Shown: one piece after another, positions 34,263 through 52,246 of the stretch
How positions within the stretch are numbered: position 1 is the first letter of the stretch
How the letters are laid out: every line of letters starts with the position of its first letter
NCBI GenBank assembly: GCA_023265135.1
Contig: JAHFUM010000004.1
Location: forward strand, 1 to 53,035
Length of the DNA stretch: 53,035 nucleotides
Direction of reading: 5' to 3'
Source: Nitrosarchaeum sp.
GTDB taxonomy: Archaea; Thermoproteota; Nitrososphaeria; Nitrososphaerales; Nitrosopumilaceae
The notes under the pieces: generated by a model
The model's input: the letters and a program-made list of their open reading frames with translations, nothing else
What the model was told of the DNA's origin: nothing
Databases searched by the model: none
Program-made: the position numbers and the translations under genes

Positions 34263-35249
34263 ATGATCATGAATAATGAATTTGAATTTATCAAAGAATG
34301 CCAAGAAAATGTATTTTCAGGAATTGGAATTTCAACCGATGATGCTGAAAAACTGTTTAACATATCAGATAAAAGCATCAAAGAATTGGCCAGAGCTGCA
34401 AATCAAATAACTAGAGATTTCAATGGAAATAAAGTGGATGTTGAACAATTAAACAACATCAAAAAAAATGCATGTAGTGAAGATTGTTCTTTTTGTGGTC
34501 AATCTGCATTTTTTGATACAGGAATTGAAACATATCAGTTACCAACAGCTGATGAAGTGGTAATTAAAGCAAGTAAAGCAAAAAATGAAGGAGCAGAATC
34601 TTATTGTCTTGTTGCAGCATGGAGAGAGCCATCCCCTAAAGATTTTGATAAAGTTTGCAACATAATAAAAGAAATCAACAGTAAAGTTGGAATTAATGTT
34701 GAATGCAGCTTAGGATTTCTTACATATGATCAAGCAAAAAAACTCAAAGATCTCAAGGTAAAAAGATACAATCATAATTTGGAAACATCAAAATCAAAAT
34801 TTTCAGAAATTTGTACTACACATACTTATGAAGACAGATTGAAAACTTTAAAAATTGCCCGGGATGCGGGATTAGAATTGTGCACTGGTGGAATAATTGG
34901 ATTAGGTGAAACAAGAAAACAAAGAATAGAATTAGCATTGGAATTAGCTACACTTTATCCTGAAGAAGTAACTATAAACATACTGGTTCCGGTACCTGGT
35001 ACTCCATTGGAATTACAAACAAAATTAGAAAATTCTGAGATTGTAAGAATGTTTTCAGTAATAAGATTTCTTTTACCAGAATCCGTGATAAAAATTTCAG
35101 GCGGAAGAGAAACAAATCTTGATGATTCAGGTGAAGAGTTATTGCAAAGCGGTGCAAACGGCATAATCACATCAGGGTATCTTACAATGGGAGGAAACAA
35201 CTCTGAGAAAGATTTGGAAATGATAAAAAAGATAGGATTAGAAGCTTAA
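34263..35249 (+). CDS. bioB: Biotin synthase
   Basis: 328 residues, radical SAM. It inserts sulfur into dethiobiotin. The 4Fe-4S cluster cysteines are C71, C75 and C78 (ACSEDCSFCGQS). Also seen are CLVAAWREPSP, YNHNLETS (about 156-163), GGIIGLGETRKQRIE and LVPVPGTPLE. Arg in the [2Fe-2S] region, ISGGRE near residue 280, is present. Two in-frame ATGs (34263, 34269) are close and equivalent. TATTTT and TTTTTAAAAG elements upstream suggest its own promoter. Confidence 0.94.
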   Translation: MIMNNEFEFIKECQENVFSGIGISTDDAEKLFNISDKSIKELARAANQITRDFNGNKVDVEQLNNIKKNACSEDCSFCGQSAFFDTGIETYQLPTADEVVIKASKAKNEGAESYCLVAAWREPSPKDFDKVCNIIKEINSKVGINVECSLGFLTYDQAKKLKDLKVKRYNHNLETSKSKFSEICTTHTYEDRLKTLKIARDAGLELCTGGIIGLGETRKQRIELALELATLYPEEVTINILVPVPGTPLELQTKLENSEIVRMFSVIRFLLPESVIKISGGRETNLDDSGEELLQSGANGIITSGYLTMGGNNSEKDLEMIKKIGLEA

Positions 35250-35475
35250 GTGAATTAGATATTTGTTTTATACAGATATTATCAAAAGTATATTTGTAAA
35301 AATTGTAAACTTTAATGAAATGAATAATAAAAGAGAAACAAGTAAACCAAATAACTGCTTCTAAATATTACCTATACATCAGCATAAATTAAAACATTAA
35401 GGAAAAAATCAGATTGTAATTAAGATAATAAGAAAGGAATTTACGCTTGACTGATCTTAATTTAGAATAATTGAC

Positions 35476-36603
35476 ATGAACCATAAACTAAGATTTGTTG
35501 ATTTGGAATTAGAGCAAATAAAACAAAATAATCTATATAGAAAATTAAGATATGGCAAATTAAATCAAGGACACATTATAATCAATGGAAAAAAATTGCT
35601 GAATCTTTGTTCAAATGATTATTTAGGAATTCCGGTTACAAAAATACAAATAAAACAAATGCAGTCGAGTTCAAGATTAATTTCAGGAAATGATGAAATA
35701 TACAAAATACTAGAAAACAAACTTGCAAAACACAAATCACAGCAAACTAGTTTAATCTATCCTACTGGATATATGGCAAATTTAGGCACAATCACGGCAA
35801 TTGCAAAAAAAGGGGATTTGATTTTAAGTGATGAATTAAATCATGCAAGCATAATCGAATCATGTAAGCTTTCGGGAGCAAAAATTTCAATTTACAAACA
35901 TAATGATGTAGATGATTTAAATGGAAAACTTAAACAAAAATGCAAGAATAGATTCATTGTCACTGAAGGGGTATTTAGTATGGATGGGGATTTTTCAAAA
36001 CTAAAAGAGATCATTGAAATTGCAGAAAAATCAAAAGCGATAACCATACTTGATGACGCACATGGGGATTTTGTTGTTGGAATAGATGGAAAAGGCACTG
36101 CAAATTATTTCAATGTTGCAAAAAAAATTGATTTGTATATTAGCAGTCTAAGTAAAGGTCTAGGATCATTTGGAGGATATGTCTCATCACAAAGTAATGT
36201 GAGAGATTTATGCATAAACAAATCAAAATCTTTTATTTATACTTCAGCTCTTCCCTCATTTTTAGTGGAATATTCATTAAAGAGATTTGAATCCAATAGA
36301 GAAAAACATAGAAAAAAGCTACAAAGCAATACAAAACTACTTGGCAAAGGACTTAGAGAAATAGGATATCAAATTGATTCAAAATCACATATCATTCCAA
36401 TTATCATAGGTGCAGAAAAAACAGCAATGGACTTTGGAGGATTTCTTTTTAAAAGAGGGATATTTGTTCAACCAATAAGATACCCTACTGTTTCTAAAAA
36501 TAAAGCAAGATTACGATTATCAGTTACAGCGTGGCTTTCTGAAAAAGACATCAATTCTGCATTATCTATTTTTGAGCAAGCTGCTAAAAAATTCAAAATA
36601 TAG
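35476..36603 (+). CDS. bioF: 8-amino-7-oxononanoate synthase
   Basis: 375 residues, alpha-oxoamine synthase family. It condenses pimeloyl-thioester with alanine to KAPA. The PLP lysine is K227 in SSLSKGLGSFGG, and DDAHGD at 193-198 holds the cofactor Asp and His. The N-terminal CSNDYLG and SSRLISGND motifs are normal. No bioC, bioH, bioW or bioI is seen nearby, so pimelate origin is not explained in this window. The 226-base gap to bioB has no gene. Confidence 0.94.
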   Translation: MNHKLRFVDLELEQIKQNNLYRKLRYGKLNQGHIIINGKKLLNLCSNDYLGIPVTKIQIKQMQSSSRLISGNDEIYKILENKLAKHKSQQTSLIYPTGYMANLGTITAIAKKGDLILSDELNHASIIESCKLSGAKISIYKHNDVDDLNGKLKQKCKNRFIVTEGVFSMDGDFSKLKEIIEIAEKSKAITILDDAHGDFVVGIDGKGTANYFNVAKKIDLYISSLSKGLGSFGGYVSSQSNVRDLCINKSKSFIYTSALPSFLVEYSLKRFESNREKHRKKLQSNTKLLGKGLREIGYQIDSKSHIIPIIIGAEKTAMDFGGFLFKRGIFVQPIRYPTVSKNKARLRLSVTAWLSEKDINSALSIFEQAAKKFKI

Positions 36604-36878: not shown

Positions 36879-37604
36879 GTGGTGACACATACACTAGTGA
36901 CAAATTCATTTAAAACAAAATTTCCTACTAATAATGAAGGAAATAAAGATTTGATAAGTAACTCATGGAATAAAGCGGAAGGGGAAAGCATTTCTCAAAG
37001 AGTAATGGCGAAAGTTAAACCAGATATCCCATTAAAAACAAGAATTGAAGAAGCACAAAGAAAATTACAATTTCAAATTACTAAATTAGAAGGGATTACA
37101 GAAAAATTACAAAAGAAACATGATGGAATTTTTGAAAAGGTAGTTAATGCTCAAAAATCTCACAACAATGCATATGCTCAAGCATATGCAACCGAACTTG
37201 TTCAGGTCAGAAAAATGAAAAACATGGTAAGTGGAGCAAAACTTTCAATGGAACAGATTCAGTTAAGACTCAACACAGTATCTGAGTTAGGAGATGTCGT
37301 AGTAACACTTAGTCCATGTATGTCAATAATCAAGGGATTGAGTCCATCACTTAGTGGAATAATGCCAGAAGCTACATCATCTATGCAAGATTTATCACAG
37401 ATATTGGGAGATGTAATGATTGGCTCTTCAATTGAAGGAAGTGACTTAATGAGTACTGGAAGTGTTAGCAATTCAGACACATTAGCAATTCTTGAAGAAG
37501 CACATTCAGTTATTGCAGGACAAACAAAAGCATCAATACCAGATATTCCTGACAGTCTAAAGCACGAGATTATTCAAAGAAGAACATCAGATGTTTTGGT
37601 TTAA
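36879..37604 (+). CDS. cdvB: ESCRT-III/CdvB-like cell division protein
   Basis: 241 residues from a GTG. A TATA-like CATAAATAA at 36845-36853 fits a leaderless mRNA. ESCRT-III forms membrane-constricting filaments in archaeal division or vesicle release. The core (about 45-190) is the expected run of basic then acidic helices: RIEEAQRKLQFQITKLEGIT, KHDGIFEKVVNAQ, YATELVQVRKMKNM, then RLNTVSELGDVV. Near the C-terminus SIPDIPDSL (about 219-227) resembles a MIM2 motif for the Vps4/CdvC ATPase, which is tentative. Whether this is the main CdvB or a paralogue cannot be told. Confidence 0.88.
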   Translation: MVTHTLVTNSFKTKFPTNNEGNKDLISNSWNKAEGESISQRVMAKVKPDIPLKTRIEEAQRKLQFQITKLEGITEKLQKKHDGIFEKVVNAQKSHNNAYAQAYATELVQVRKMKNMVSGAKLSMEQIQLRLNTVSELGDVVVTLSPCMSIIKGLSPSLSGIMPEATSSMQDLSQILGDVMIGSSIEGSDLMSTGSVSNSDTLAILEEAHSVIAGQTKASIPDIPDSLKHEIIQRRTSDVLV

Positions 37605-37617
37605 TTGAGTTCTAGAA

Positions 37618-37959
37618 TTATTTTATTTTCTTTTTACTTTTTTGTATTAAAATTTTTTTGATTCTAGATATTGTAGGATAGCTATAACCTCTACGTCGAT
37701 AATTAGCAATCATCATTTTCCAATTTTTTAATCTCCATTGAGCTTGTTCTGATGTAACAGAATGAACTTCTTTTTGGATAATGCTTTTTCTTCCTACTTT
37801 TAGTGTTCCTGCATCTTTTGCAGACCATCTATTTTTGGCAAATTTTAGACCAGACAAAATGTCAGATATAGGCATTTCCTTGAAATATTCACGTAGTCTT
37901 TTCAGCTCAACTTCAGTAGGTTGTTGTGATATTTGCAACTCAATTACAGGTTTTTGCAT
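37618..37959 (-). CDS. Basic hypothetical protein
   Basis: 113 residues, strongly basic in the second half (NYRRRGYSYPTISRIKKILI, then a Lys run). A helical motif ELKRLREYFKEMPISDIL occurs at about 18-35. The charge suggests nucleic-acid binding, but I recognise no domain. Convergent with CdvB, 13 bases apart. A membrane microprotein lies upstream on the same strand. Confidence 0.55.
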   Translation of the reverse strand: MQKPVIELQISQQPTEVELKRLREYFKEMPISDILSGLKFAKNRWSAKDAGTLKVGRKSIIQKEVHSVTSEQAQWRLKNWKMMIANYRRRGYSYPTISRIKKILIQKSKKKIK

Positions 37960-49921: not shown

Positions 49922-49997
49922 GTGCCTCCCTAGCTCAGCGTGGTAGAGCATCCGACTGTTAATCGGATGGTCATCAGTTCAAGTCTGATGGGAGGCG
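49922..49997 (+). tRNA. tRNA-Asn (anticodon GUU)
   Basis: All four arms can be drawn. Acceptor stem GCCTCCC (49922-49928) pairs with GGGAGGC (49990-49996), discriminator G49997. D arm GCTC/GAGC. Anticodon stem TCCGA/TCGGA encloses the loop CTGTTAA, anticodon GTT at 49956-49958. T arm ATCAG/CTGAT with loop TTCAAGT. No intron; the 3' CCA is not encoded (CCT follows). A TATA-like GATTAAATC at 49891-49899 is at the right distance upstream, and a T-run follows. Confidence 0.97.
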
Positions 49998-50068
49998 CCT
50001 TTTATTTCTAATCTCGAATTTTGAAACATTGGTTTTTAACACCATCAGATAATACACATTAATTTAAA

Positions 50069-50096
50069 ATATTTCTAAATTCGAATTTAGAAATAT
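50069..50096. promoter_or_regulatory. Perfect 28-bp palindrome, copy 1 (operator candidate)
   Basis: The half-site is ATATTTCTAAATTC, and its exact complement follows with no spacer, centred on TTCGAA. It overlaps the downstream edge of a TATA-like TTTAAAATA, so a bound protein would block initiation. The zinc-ribbon gene at 50185 is the nearest downstream gene. A near-identical copy lies at 50736-50763. Confidence 0.7.
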
Positions 50097-50184
50097 CGAT
50101 CGATTGAAACAATTTGGTTTACTCTATTAGACTGGATAGATCTAATAGATGATCGCATATTAACAATAATGCAGGAGGTTTACA

Positions 50185-50424
50185 TTGGTCAGAACTAGAA
50201 GGGCCAACAGATATTGTGTTGATTGTGGTTCAAGATTAGTCTATTACCCAAGATTATCTAATCCAAAAGCTCCAAACGAACATAGAGTACTAGTCTATGC
50301 GTGTCCGGATTGCACGAAAGACTTTGAAAAACCAAAGATGTTTTCAATTAGACGGAATCAGGTAGATGACCCACTTGAAACTGTGGAAATAGAGATAACT
50401 CAAAATCAGAAAAAAACCATTTAG
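50185..50424 (+). CDS. 79-residue zinc-ribbon protein
   Basis: It starts at a TTG with GGAGG 8 bases upstream. A basic N-terminus (VRTRRANR) leads into CVDCGSRLVYYPR and then YACPDCTKDFEKPK, a zinc ribbon with 28 residues between knuckles. The acidic tail has no motif. Nucleic-acid or protein binding is possible. It lies downstream of the first 28-bp palindrome and may be controlled by it. Confidence 0.7.
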   Translation: MVRTRRANRYCVDCGSRLVYYPRLSNPKAPNEHRVLVYACPDCTKDFEKPKMFSIRRNQVDDPLETVEIEITQNQKKTI

Positions 50425-50468
50425 AAAGTAATGAATTTAATGTACACATTAACCAATTAAAGATCAAA

Positions 50469-50693
50469 ATGGAACCTGTAAGACCCAGAAGCAATATGTG
50501 GTATCTTTTGCCAATATTTGCAGGATTGATTGGTGGATTCATAGCATATTGGATTTTAAGAAGTGATGATCCACCTAAAGCAAAAAAATGTTTGTATATA
50601 GGAATTGTGTCACTAATTGCTGGAATTATTATCAATATTTTGATGGGCACACAAATTCCAAATGTCACGCCTGGTATCAATGTAAATGTCTAA
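50469..50693 (+). CDS. Small two-span membrane protein
   Basis: 74 residues. Two hydrophobic helices (about 11-29 and 42-60) flank a charged loop RSDDPPKAKK, followed by a short polar tail (PNVTPGINVNV). The N-terminus MEPVRPRSNMWYL looks cytosolic. Not recognised. It follows the zinc-ribbon gene by 44 bases and may share its transcript. Confidence 0.6.
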   Translation: MEPVRPRSNMWYLLPIFAGLIGGFIAYWILRSDDPPKAKKCLYIGIVSLIAGIIINILMGTQIPNVTPGINVNV

Positions 50694-50735
50694 AACCAGT
50701 GCTCAAAACTCGTTGCAGACAGGTATAGATTAAGA

Positions 50736-50763
50736 TTATTTCTTTATTCGAATTTAGAAATAT
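50736..50763. promoter_or_regulatory. 28-bp palindrome, copy 2 (operator candidate)
   Basis: It matches copy 1 at 25 of 28 positions; the right half is identical, and the left half differs at three bases. Again centred on TTCGAA. A TATA-like TATAGATTA at 50724-50732 lies just before it, so the site falls between TATA box and expected start site, the same arrangement as copy 1. Confidence 0.65.
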
Positions 50764-50829
50764 TTGAAATTAACAACATGACTCATACACAAAATTTAGA
50801 ATCATATAGACCTAAAAAGAATACACTGC

Positions 50830-51279
50830 ATGATAAATTCCAAAATGCAAGACAATGTAGAAAGATGGCTAATACATGAGAGCCATTCATTTGAATCAAT
50901 TAAAACCCCTGAAAATAATTATCATCTTTTAGTAAAACATGCAGGTAAATATGGAATACCAATTGAAATATTTGAACCAAAATCACAGCCAGAAGTCATC
51001 GTAATAGGTGCCAAAGTAATAATGAAAAATAATCAAATTGCAAGATATTTGGGATTCAACGATGATGAAAAAGCTCAATTTGAGAAAAAAGTAGCTAATT
51101 TTTGTAATTCAATTCAAGCTATTAACAAAATGATCACTGAGGAAGGCAAGCAAAAGGTAGAGGTTTTTGTGGTATTAGACGATAAAGAAAACATCAGCCA
51201 ACAAACAGTTTTTGATGCAATTGACCTAGTCTCTGAAATGCATGAAAAAACTGCACGTTTTTTGATGAAAACTTTCTAA
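50830..51279 (+). CDS. DUF2299-like conserved archaeal protein (tentative)
   Basis: 149 residues. The pattern (VERWLIHESHSFESI at about 9-23, IPIEIFEPKSQPEVIVIGAK in the middle, a long helix, then KVEVFVVLDDKE and a C-terminal helix) recalls a small alpha/beta family like DUF2299 or chaperone-like folds, but I cannot confirm it. Start at 50830 or Met6 (50845). An overlapping 33-codon ATG frame from 50779 in another frame may be a leader. It lies just after palindrome copy 2. Confidence 0.6.
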   Translation: MINSKMQDNVERWLIHESHSFESIKTPENNYHLLVKHAGKYGIPIEIFEPKSQPEVIVIGAKVIMKNNQIARYLGFNDDEKAQFEKKVANFCNSIQAINKMITEEGKQKVEVFVVLDDKENISQQTVFDAIDLVSEMHEKTARFLMKTF

Positions 51280-51506
51280 AATTAGAGTATTTGTTGAGTC
51301 TATTGTGCAGTTTGATTGTCTTACACCTGGGTATTTCAAACAACATTCAAGATATTCAATCACAAATCCTCAATTGATGCTATAGCCAAATAATGTTTAA
51401 TATTAGATATCAGATAAAACGAGAGGTTTGGATATTGATCAGATGCAGTAAACCAGTCTATATTTTTACAAAATAATCAAAGAGGTAGTTTTTAGAAAAA
51501 TAGTCG

Positions 51507-51687
51507 TAAAAGCTAAACCCCCCATTAATTTTCCGGGAATCAGGCACAATGTCATATTATCAAAATCATTCATTTTTTGGGGGGGTTTAACACTTGTGCT
51601 TGTACAGGAAAGCCAATCGCGAAACCACCAAGATGTCCCAGCTAAAGATGCCAAAGAAATCATTCATACGAATAAAAGCTAAACCCC
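51507..51687 (+). repeat. 15-bp direct repeat pair
   Basis: TAAAAGCTAAACCCC occurs at 51507-51521 and again at 51673-51687, 166 bases apart. The pair brackets a decayed microprotein frame and one edge of a pseudogene. Between them an inverted C-run/G-run (51515-51526 with 51578-51590) could also pair. Confidence 0.7.
51549..51682 (+). pseudogene. Possible frameshifted zinc-ribbon microprotein remnant
   Basis: An ATG frame (MSYYQNHSFFGGV) stops right after a run of seven G. Removing one G opens FNTCACTGKPIAKPPRCPS, a CxC...CPxC-like pattern, which then needs a second shift at about 51643 to continue as KDAKEIIHTNKS and stop in the direct repeat. Two shifts suggest decay. The reconstruction is mine and could be chance. 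Confidence 0.3.
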
Positions 51688-52246
51688 GTCAAAAAATAAA
51701 AAAGAAAAAGTGATTTTATTAGTCCTACAGGTGCATCAGTTAAATCAACTGCAAGTCCAGCATTGCATCCTGATTCAGGATTTACAACAAATCCCACTGT
51801 ACCATCTATCTCTGATGTTGTAAATGGCATTTGTGCATTCTAACATTGATACTCATTTTGTCACCCTTGATTGAGATTCCACCTTGTGGATTTGGGAAAA
51901 ATGAATCAATGCATAAATCATGTCCATTTAGTCCAGTAGCTAATTGTGCAGCATGCATATGCCATGAATCTGGGTTTTGTGCAGAATTACGGAATGTTGG
52001 GTGAATAGTTGCCACAAGTACTTTAAGAGTATCTAGATCAGCTCATGCAAAACCCGCTACAGCATCTGGGTCTACAGATGTTTTTCGTGGAATATCTCCA
52101 CTAGCAGTTACAGTAAGCTTTGATATTGTGGCATCTTGTTGTTTTGCAGTTGTTGTTGTTACTACAGCCCATGATGGAGATGCTTTTACAAATGTAGTCA
52201 TAAAGATTACCGCAAACACTGTTGCTGTAATCAACGATATACTCAA
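51660..52246 (-). pseudogene. Exported protein pseudogene, one nonsense codon and one frameshift
   Basis: The frame starts with a signal segment (MSISLITATVFAVIFMTTFV) and runs to an in-frame TGA at 52043-52045, where TGG (Trp) would fit. The same frame goes on as ADLDTLKVLVATIHPTFRNS through NPQGGISIKGDKMSINV, then loses frame near 51839-51845. A minus-one shift restores NAQMPFTTSEIDGTVGFVVN, then CNAGLAVDLTDAPVGLIKS. Both lesions separate protein-like stretches. The last 20 codons are Phe-rich and may not be original. Family not named. Confidence 0.75.

Follow-up and report, generated by a model that had tools for sequence, protein, structure and literature searches.

Two near-identical 28-bp palindromes stand ahead of small genes in the 53,035-nt stretch of a Nitrosarchaeum contig analysed here (hereinafter the window), raising the question of whether they serve the neighbouring promoters or mark a place on the chromosome. 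A sequence-only reading of this DNA had proposed that they may be repressor operators of a small regulon. Ammonia-oxidizing archaea are abundant, and a 28-bp site found across four families together with a candidate binder provides a concrete handle; whether a landmark or a local switch, it would in either case belong to a conserved DNA-protein system for which we found no description in these organisms.

Palindrome copies and their symmetry

The first copy (hereinafter copy b, 50069-50096, ATATTTCTAAATTCGAATTTAGAAATAT) is palindromic over all 28 bp without a mismatch. No palindrome in the window is longer, and the second-longest perfect ones span 16 bp; none of 200 Markov-1 random windows contains a perfect palindrome longer than 24 bp. 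The second (copy c, 50736-50763) matches copy b at 25 of 28 positions and has an identical right half, in agreement with the sequence-only reading. When searched with up to three mismatches, the 24-mer core finds only these two copies in the window (chance mean 0.00) and no further site in the whole 1.8-Mb genome. Looser searches add a third, weaker copy that the sequence-only reading had overlooked (copy a, 50002-50029, with the core TTTCTAATCTCGAATTTTGAAA at 50005-50026) directly 3′ of a plus-strand tRNA-Asn (GTT) gene (49924-49999), and a fourth copy 538 bp beyond the window end (C2:53573-53594). All four copies of the source genome fall within 3.6 kb.

The genes downstream of copies b and c are those that had been named from the sequence. 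The start codon of a 79-aa zinc-ribbon protein (50185-50424, plus strand) lies 88 nt downstream of copy b; the protein has only weak Pfam matches, is conserved in family f1 and has orthologues in f2 and f3. It is followed by a small membrane protein of 74 aa (50469-50693, plus strand), and copy c is located between the membrane gene and a plus-strand gene for a DUF2299 protein (50830-51279; PF10061, E=1.8e-17), the true start of which may be the ATG at 50845. Most relatives carry an orthologous copy b at an equal distance from the zinc-ribbon start, and orthologous copies of copy c are likewise present in relatives. Copy a keeps the same place in several of them, 60-82 bp ahead of copy b.

The consensus derived from 294 non-redundant sites is ATRTTTCWAAAYTCGARTTTWGAAAYAT, and conservation drops beyond 28 bp. 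Perfect symmetry extends over 22 bp in 117 of the 294 sites and over the full 28 bp in 42. The conserved span can be read as an 11+6+11 inverted-repeat layout, the 6-bp centre of which is itself palindromic. Across the 294 sites the variable dyad columns are mostly uncompensated and non-complementary combinations are common: column 0/23 holds AT in 110, AC in 64, GT in 61 and GC in 19 sites, and column 9/14 holds TA in 152, CA in 54, TG in 46 and CG in 40. Complementary pairs are in small to modest excess at some dyad columns, which common descent or matching of the half-sites would lead one to expect, and a symmetric change at both palindrome ends is seen in some f8 genomes (TTGC...GCAA in G154 and G175). 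Because the half-sites vary almost independently, the palindrome behaves as a double-stranded, homodimer-type DNA site rather than an RNA hairpin, with two nearly independent half-sites that are presumably read by two equal subunits.

Conservation of the cluster and turnover of its neighbours

Searching for the core with up to three mismatches yields matches in 38 of 61 genomes, while the backward pattern, applied as a control to the same 61 genomes, matches in a single genome, which lacks a forward match. A degenerate exact pattern matches 192 of 300 genomes of the class, all within four families (f1, f2, f3 and f8), compared with one of 300 for its control. Among the matches listed, the named carriers are Nitrosopumilaceae- and Nitrososphaeraceae-type ammonia oxidizers and some unplaced thaumarchaeotes; a GTDB scan gives at least 80 matches, and those listed are all thaumarchaeal by title except one 'uncultured archaeon'. 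Exact copies number one to five per matching genome (two to five in most), and wherever they can be compared on a single contig they share one neighbourhood of ~0.1-22 kb. A literature search returned no account of this motif. The matches are not scattered within genes and close relatives carry copies, both of which accord with the sequence-only reading. A regulon of promoters across the genome, in contrast, does not emerge: no convincing copies were found outside the home neighbourhood, either in the source genome or in the other genomes searched.

The f1 order is uL6, a small gene, tRNA-Asn, copy a, copy b, zinc ribbon, membrane gene, copy c and DUF2299, followed by a DUF4352 protein, a Lys/Ala-rich H1-like protein, copy d, PPOX and ArsR-like genes on the other strand, and purC. 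Copy d lies ~10-16 bp beyond the PPOX stop codon in nearly all f1 genomes, between convergent genes, with similar cases in f8, and is therefore not an obvious promoter site. The gene that precedes copy d, convergent with PPOX, encodes a Lys/Ala/Arg-rich, histone-H1-like protein with short repeats (L046:5223-5535, C2, just beyond the window end). We rejected the PPOX or ArsR-like neighbour as the regulator, as it is next to copy d in f1 only and so is not general.

Other genera and families have their palindromes next to a 110-aa protein (hereinafter cl11), a CdvB-like gene, bioB-bioF, tandem paralogues designated cl21 or a NUDIX gene. The neighbours thus turn over (zinc ribbon, DUF2299 and PPOX; cl21 paralogues; bioB-bioF; Fic-like) while the cluster persists. 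Three genomes (G164, G018 and G023) have a zinc-ribbon gene without a palindrome directly upstream, the cluster being present beside other genes. G164 contains three copies and one weaker copy in a ~1-kb non-coding gap between convergent DUF4352 and PPOX genes, none of them ahead of its zinc-ribbon or DUF2299 genes. Together with the f1 copy between convergent stops, these three genomes argue against the specificity for zinc-ribbon and DUF2299 genes that had been supposed.

Several of the replacing neighbours were characterised further. A gene that we take, from reading its sequence, to be Fic-like (L052:6381-7277) separates the palindromes from the zinc-ribbon gene in G023. The cl21 genes encode tandem paralogous small secreted proteins (L300:5419-6071 and L303:7054-7704), and ~47 nt ahead of each start there is a separate palindrome. 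The window also holds two plus-strand genes (34263-36603) that, again by reading the sequence, we presume to be bioB (34263-35249) and bioF (35476-36603), the homologues of which are palindrome-flanked in Nitrososphaera-type relatives. A biotin operator was considered and discarded: bioB-bioF is palindrome-flanked only in some lineages and has no palindromes in the source genome.

Distance to start codons and position on the chromosome

The distance from palindrome to start codon is near-constant within each gene family, amounting to 90-92 nt at nearly all zinc-ribbon loci and mostly 65-72 nt at DUF2299 loci; elsewhere it is 47-48 nt for cl21, 50-68 nt for bioB and 22-45 nt for cl11. Where a TATA-like box is recognisable, it is located 5-35 nt downstream of the palindrome (cl11, AAAGTTAATTAAC; cl21, TTAATTAA; bioB, TTTTAATTA). 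A conserved box (AATTTAGAATCATATAGA, 50793-50812, plus strand) between copy c and the DUF2299 start, also downstream of the palindrome, is a TATA candidate. The palindrome upstream of a TATA-like box would thus occupy an activator-like position, not the proposed repressor position. That proposal had each copy flanked by a TATA-like element on one side and the expected transcription start on the other, the classical place for a repressor; the recognisable boxes at cl11, cl21 and bioB instead follow the palindrome, and the TATA-like string to the left of copy b is unconserved in 46 orthologous leaders.

A crude classification of flanking-gene orientation, in which some genes are mis-assigned, counts 155 tandem, 56 convergent and 41 divergent sites, and shows neither a bias towards promoters nor an enrichment at divergent ones. 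The divergent cl11 and zinc-ribbon genes of f2 and f3 have one palindrome in common. Of the operator regulon as first proposed, the binding-site-like palindromes, their conservation at orthologous loci and the fixed start distances are supported, whereas the classical repressor position, a genome-wide regulon and the gene-specificity are not.

Copy b is separated from the zinc-ribbon start by a leader (50097-50184, plus strand) that hardly varies among Nitrosopumilaceae-type genomes and includes an invariant inverted motif (TTAGAC-n-GATCTAA) and a GGAGG before the TTG start. The leader may act as a cis-regulatory RNA or provide a second DNA site. Its consensus fold shows no compensatory changes. 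Apart from the tRNA, Rfam yields just a sub-threshold match antisense to that gene, and no family for the leader or the palindromes.

On the chromosome scale, the distance from the cluster to cdc6 is 0.397-0.486 of the chromosome in all 27 complete, single-contig genomes (11 genera, 3 families; six chromosome lengths rounded to 0.1 Mb). In G014 and G023 the skew at third codon positions reverses both at cdc6 and roughly across the chromosome from it, a pattern that fits cdc6 as a marker of the origin; a single mapped replication origin in N. maritimus is cited in PMC4010727. Upon fine sampling, the second skew switch falls at the cluster in G023, whereas G014, G020, G035 and G095 have it 30-60 kb off the cluster, towards the ribosomal-protein genes; the skew is too weak to place the switch in G037 and noisy in G025 and G128. 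Because the switch lies 30-60 kb away in four genomes, the cluster is terminus-proximal without being the fork-meeting point itself.

The main ribosomal-protein cluster is also near the terminus, opposite cdc6, in 27 of 27 complete genomes (0.39-0.49), and it usually lies within a few kb of the palindromes. The position of the palindromes is therefore confounded with that of the ribosomal-protein genes and may be inherited synteny. A clear separation of the two is seen in one of the 27 genomes, G023, where the ribosomal-protein cluster is 226 kb from the palindromes and the palindromes are nearer the antipode.

A candidate binder and the readings of the cluster

The best candidate binder of the palindromes, as opposed to an established one, is cl11. 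The source genome encodes it as a 113-aa basic protein on the minus strand (37618-37959), ~12 kb from the palindromes and with no palindrome upstream of its gene; the cl11 start is preceded by a palindrome, at 22-45 bp, in f2, f3 and several f8 genera. The structure model (mean pLDDT 87, pTM 0.55) is all-helical with a C-terminal helix-turn-helix. No Pfam or NCBIfam match and no PDB sequence relative above noise were found for the protein, and a PDB fold search with the model gave no significant match. We detected cl11 in 41 of 55 genomes searched; over all searches for it, every palindrome-bearing genome covered has it except G127 and G149. It occurs without a palindrome in G173, G176, G027 and G248, neither is present in G168 and G211, and the sole match outside the four families (G047, E=6.7e-4), which is full of stops, was treated as chance. 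Assigning cl11 as the sole binder by phylogenetic profile was rejected, the co-occurrence being good but imperfect with exceptions in both directions. This family-less, apparently lineage-specific helix-turn-helix protein is convergent with a CdvB/ESCRT-III (Snf7)-like gene (36879-37604, plus strand), which has bioB-bioF as neighbours and a homologue of which matches Snf7 at E=2.1e-5, under the curated cut-off.

Our tentative preference, held at somewhat less than an even chance, is that the cluster is a position-defined landmark similar to parS or a centromere. A homodimeric DNA-binding protein would occupy the palindrome cluster and mark a chromosomal position, as parS or an archaeal centromere-like site does, and the marked cluster would assist chromosome organisation or segregation; contacts with nearby promoters, in some families the binder's own, would be secondary. 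The binder could be cl11, encoded ~12 kb away beside the CdvB-like (ESCRT-III) gene, with a putative role in segregation. The fuller proposal, in which the cluster serves ammonia-oxidizing archaea as a centromere-like site or a terminus marker, is occupied by cl11 and so couples chromosome position to Cdv-type division, is considerably more doubtful. A few palindromic copies are clustered at one chromosomal position, and the landmark is preferred because the cluster persists despite gene turnover and because copies lie between convergent genes. G023, with its palindromes near the terminus, the skew switch at that place and the ribosomal-protein cluster far away, counts in its favour, while the near-constant distances to some start codons, as for operators, weaken it.

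Known systems resemble such a landmark in part. Bacterial parS sites are 16 bp long, lie near the origin and have TTTC...GAAA outer ends. The palindromes share with parS of the ParABS system these outer ends and the character of short, conserved sequences present in few copies at one chromosomal place, but are 28 bp long and near the terminus. The SegB protein of the Sulfolobales SegAB system offers a parallel in its palindromic sites, its nature as a small dimeric archaeal protein, the sites at its own operon and its part in chromosome organisation (PMC12284271, PMC5120986). The SegB motif, however, is TCTAGASTCTAGA (13 bp), with ~46 sites chromosome-wide and mostly inside genes (PMC12284271), as compared with a 28-bp motif that usually has 2-5 intergenic sites in one neighbourhood here, and SegB is a ribbon-helix-helix protein whereas cl11 is modelled as all-helical. 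A TCTAGA-S-TCTAGA core with dispersed sites, as in the SegB system, was not found: the consensus differs and there is one cluster only. AspA of plasmid pNOB8 has an autoregulatory layout with a site at its own gene (PMC5120986), as does cl11 in f2, f3 and several f8 genera; unlike the present case, it is plasmid-borne, has ParB and ParA partners and differs in sequence, and the searches with cl11 revealed no homology to solved structures. Archaeal operators of the TrmB or ArsR types share the palindromes upstream of promoters and the autoregulatory layout, but here copies also lie between convergent genes, and position and copy number outlast the neighbour genes. A literature search found no account of centromere-like or dimer-resolution sites in ammonia-oxidizing archaea.

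The constant start distances favour an operator reading, in which a dimeric regulator (cl11 or another) bound just upstream of BRE/TATA would activate or modulate its neighbours as a small, one-neighbourhood regulon; we place it second, as a serious possibility. It would explain why these distances are family-specific, why TATA-like boxes follow 5-35 nt on at cl11, cl21 and bioB, why each tandem cl21 paralogue has its own copy and why one palindrome serves the divergent cl11 and zinc-ribbon pair of f2 and f3. It accounts less well for the f1 copy ~10-16 bp beyond the PPOX stop between convergent genes and the similar f8 cases, for the lack of an excess at divergent promoters in the crude orientation count (41, with 155 tandem and 56 convergent), and for the apparent failure to recruit distant genes in any of the four families. 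The landmark and operator readings are close, and both could hold together, as a review notes to be possible for SegB sites (PMC5120986).

The remaining explanations carry much less weight. At a dif-like site, a tyrosine recombinase would resolve chromosome dimers near the terminus via 11-bp arms and a 6-bp centre. The 28-bp inverted-repeat span readable as 11+6+11, the terminus-proximal location typical of bacterial dif and the report from 2010 that xerA is absent from Thaumarchaea (PMC2958812) agree with this idea. The described dif site, however, is single-copy with its 11+6+11 layout (PMC8371274), while 2-5 near-identical copies with a symmetric centre occur here, and across the f1 loci compared the genes flanked by copies are neither inverted nor excised, with no sign of recombination between copies; copy number and stable gene order thus make a dif site unlikely. 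A Ter-like replication fork trap, with a bound protein halting forks near the terminus and cl11 as an analogue of Bacillus RTP, would suit the terminus-proximal cluster, the pairing of copies a and b 60-82 bp apart, the sites at cl11's own promoter in several families and the skew switch at the cluster in G023. It is nevertheless highly improbable, given that the long-term fork-meeting point is 30-60 kb off in G014, G020, G035 and G095 and that symmetric palindromes would not be polar. We give just as little credence to an RNA-level element, whether a terminator hairpin or a segment of a structured leader: although copies often lie 5-20 bp beyond stop codons and the zinc-ribbon leader is extremely conserved, dyad columns mostly vary without compensation, sites also occur ahead of TATA boxes and no Rfam family matches.

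Two further features lie downstream of the DUF2299 gene. The region 51500-51720 contains the inverted and repeated motifs AAAGCTAAACCCC and GGGGGGTTTA, around 51507-51592 and 51674, and resembles a small repeat element or an insertion remnant. The minus strand at 51660-52246 carries fragmented reading frames resembling a secreted protein, possibly a degraded gene.
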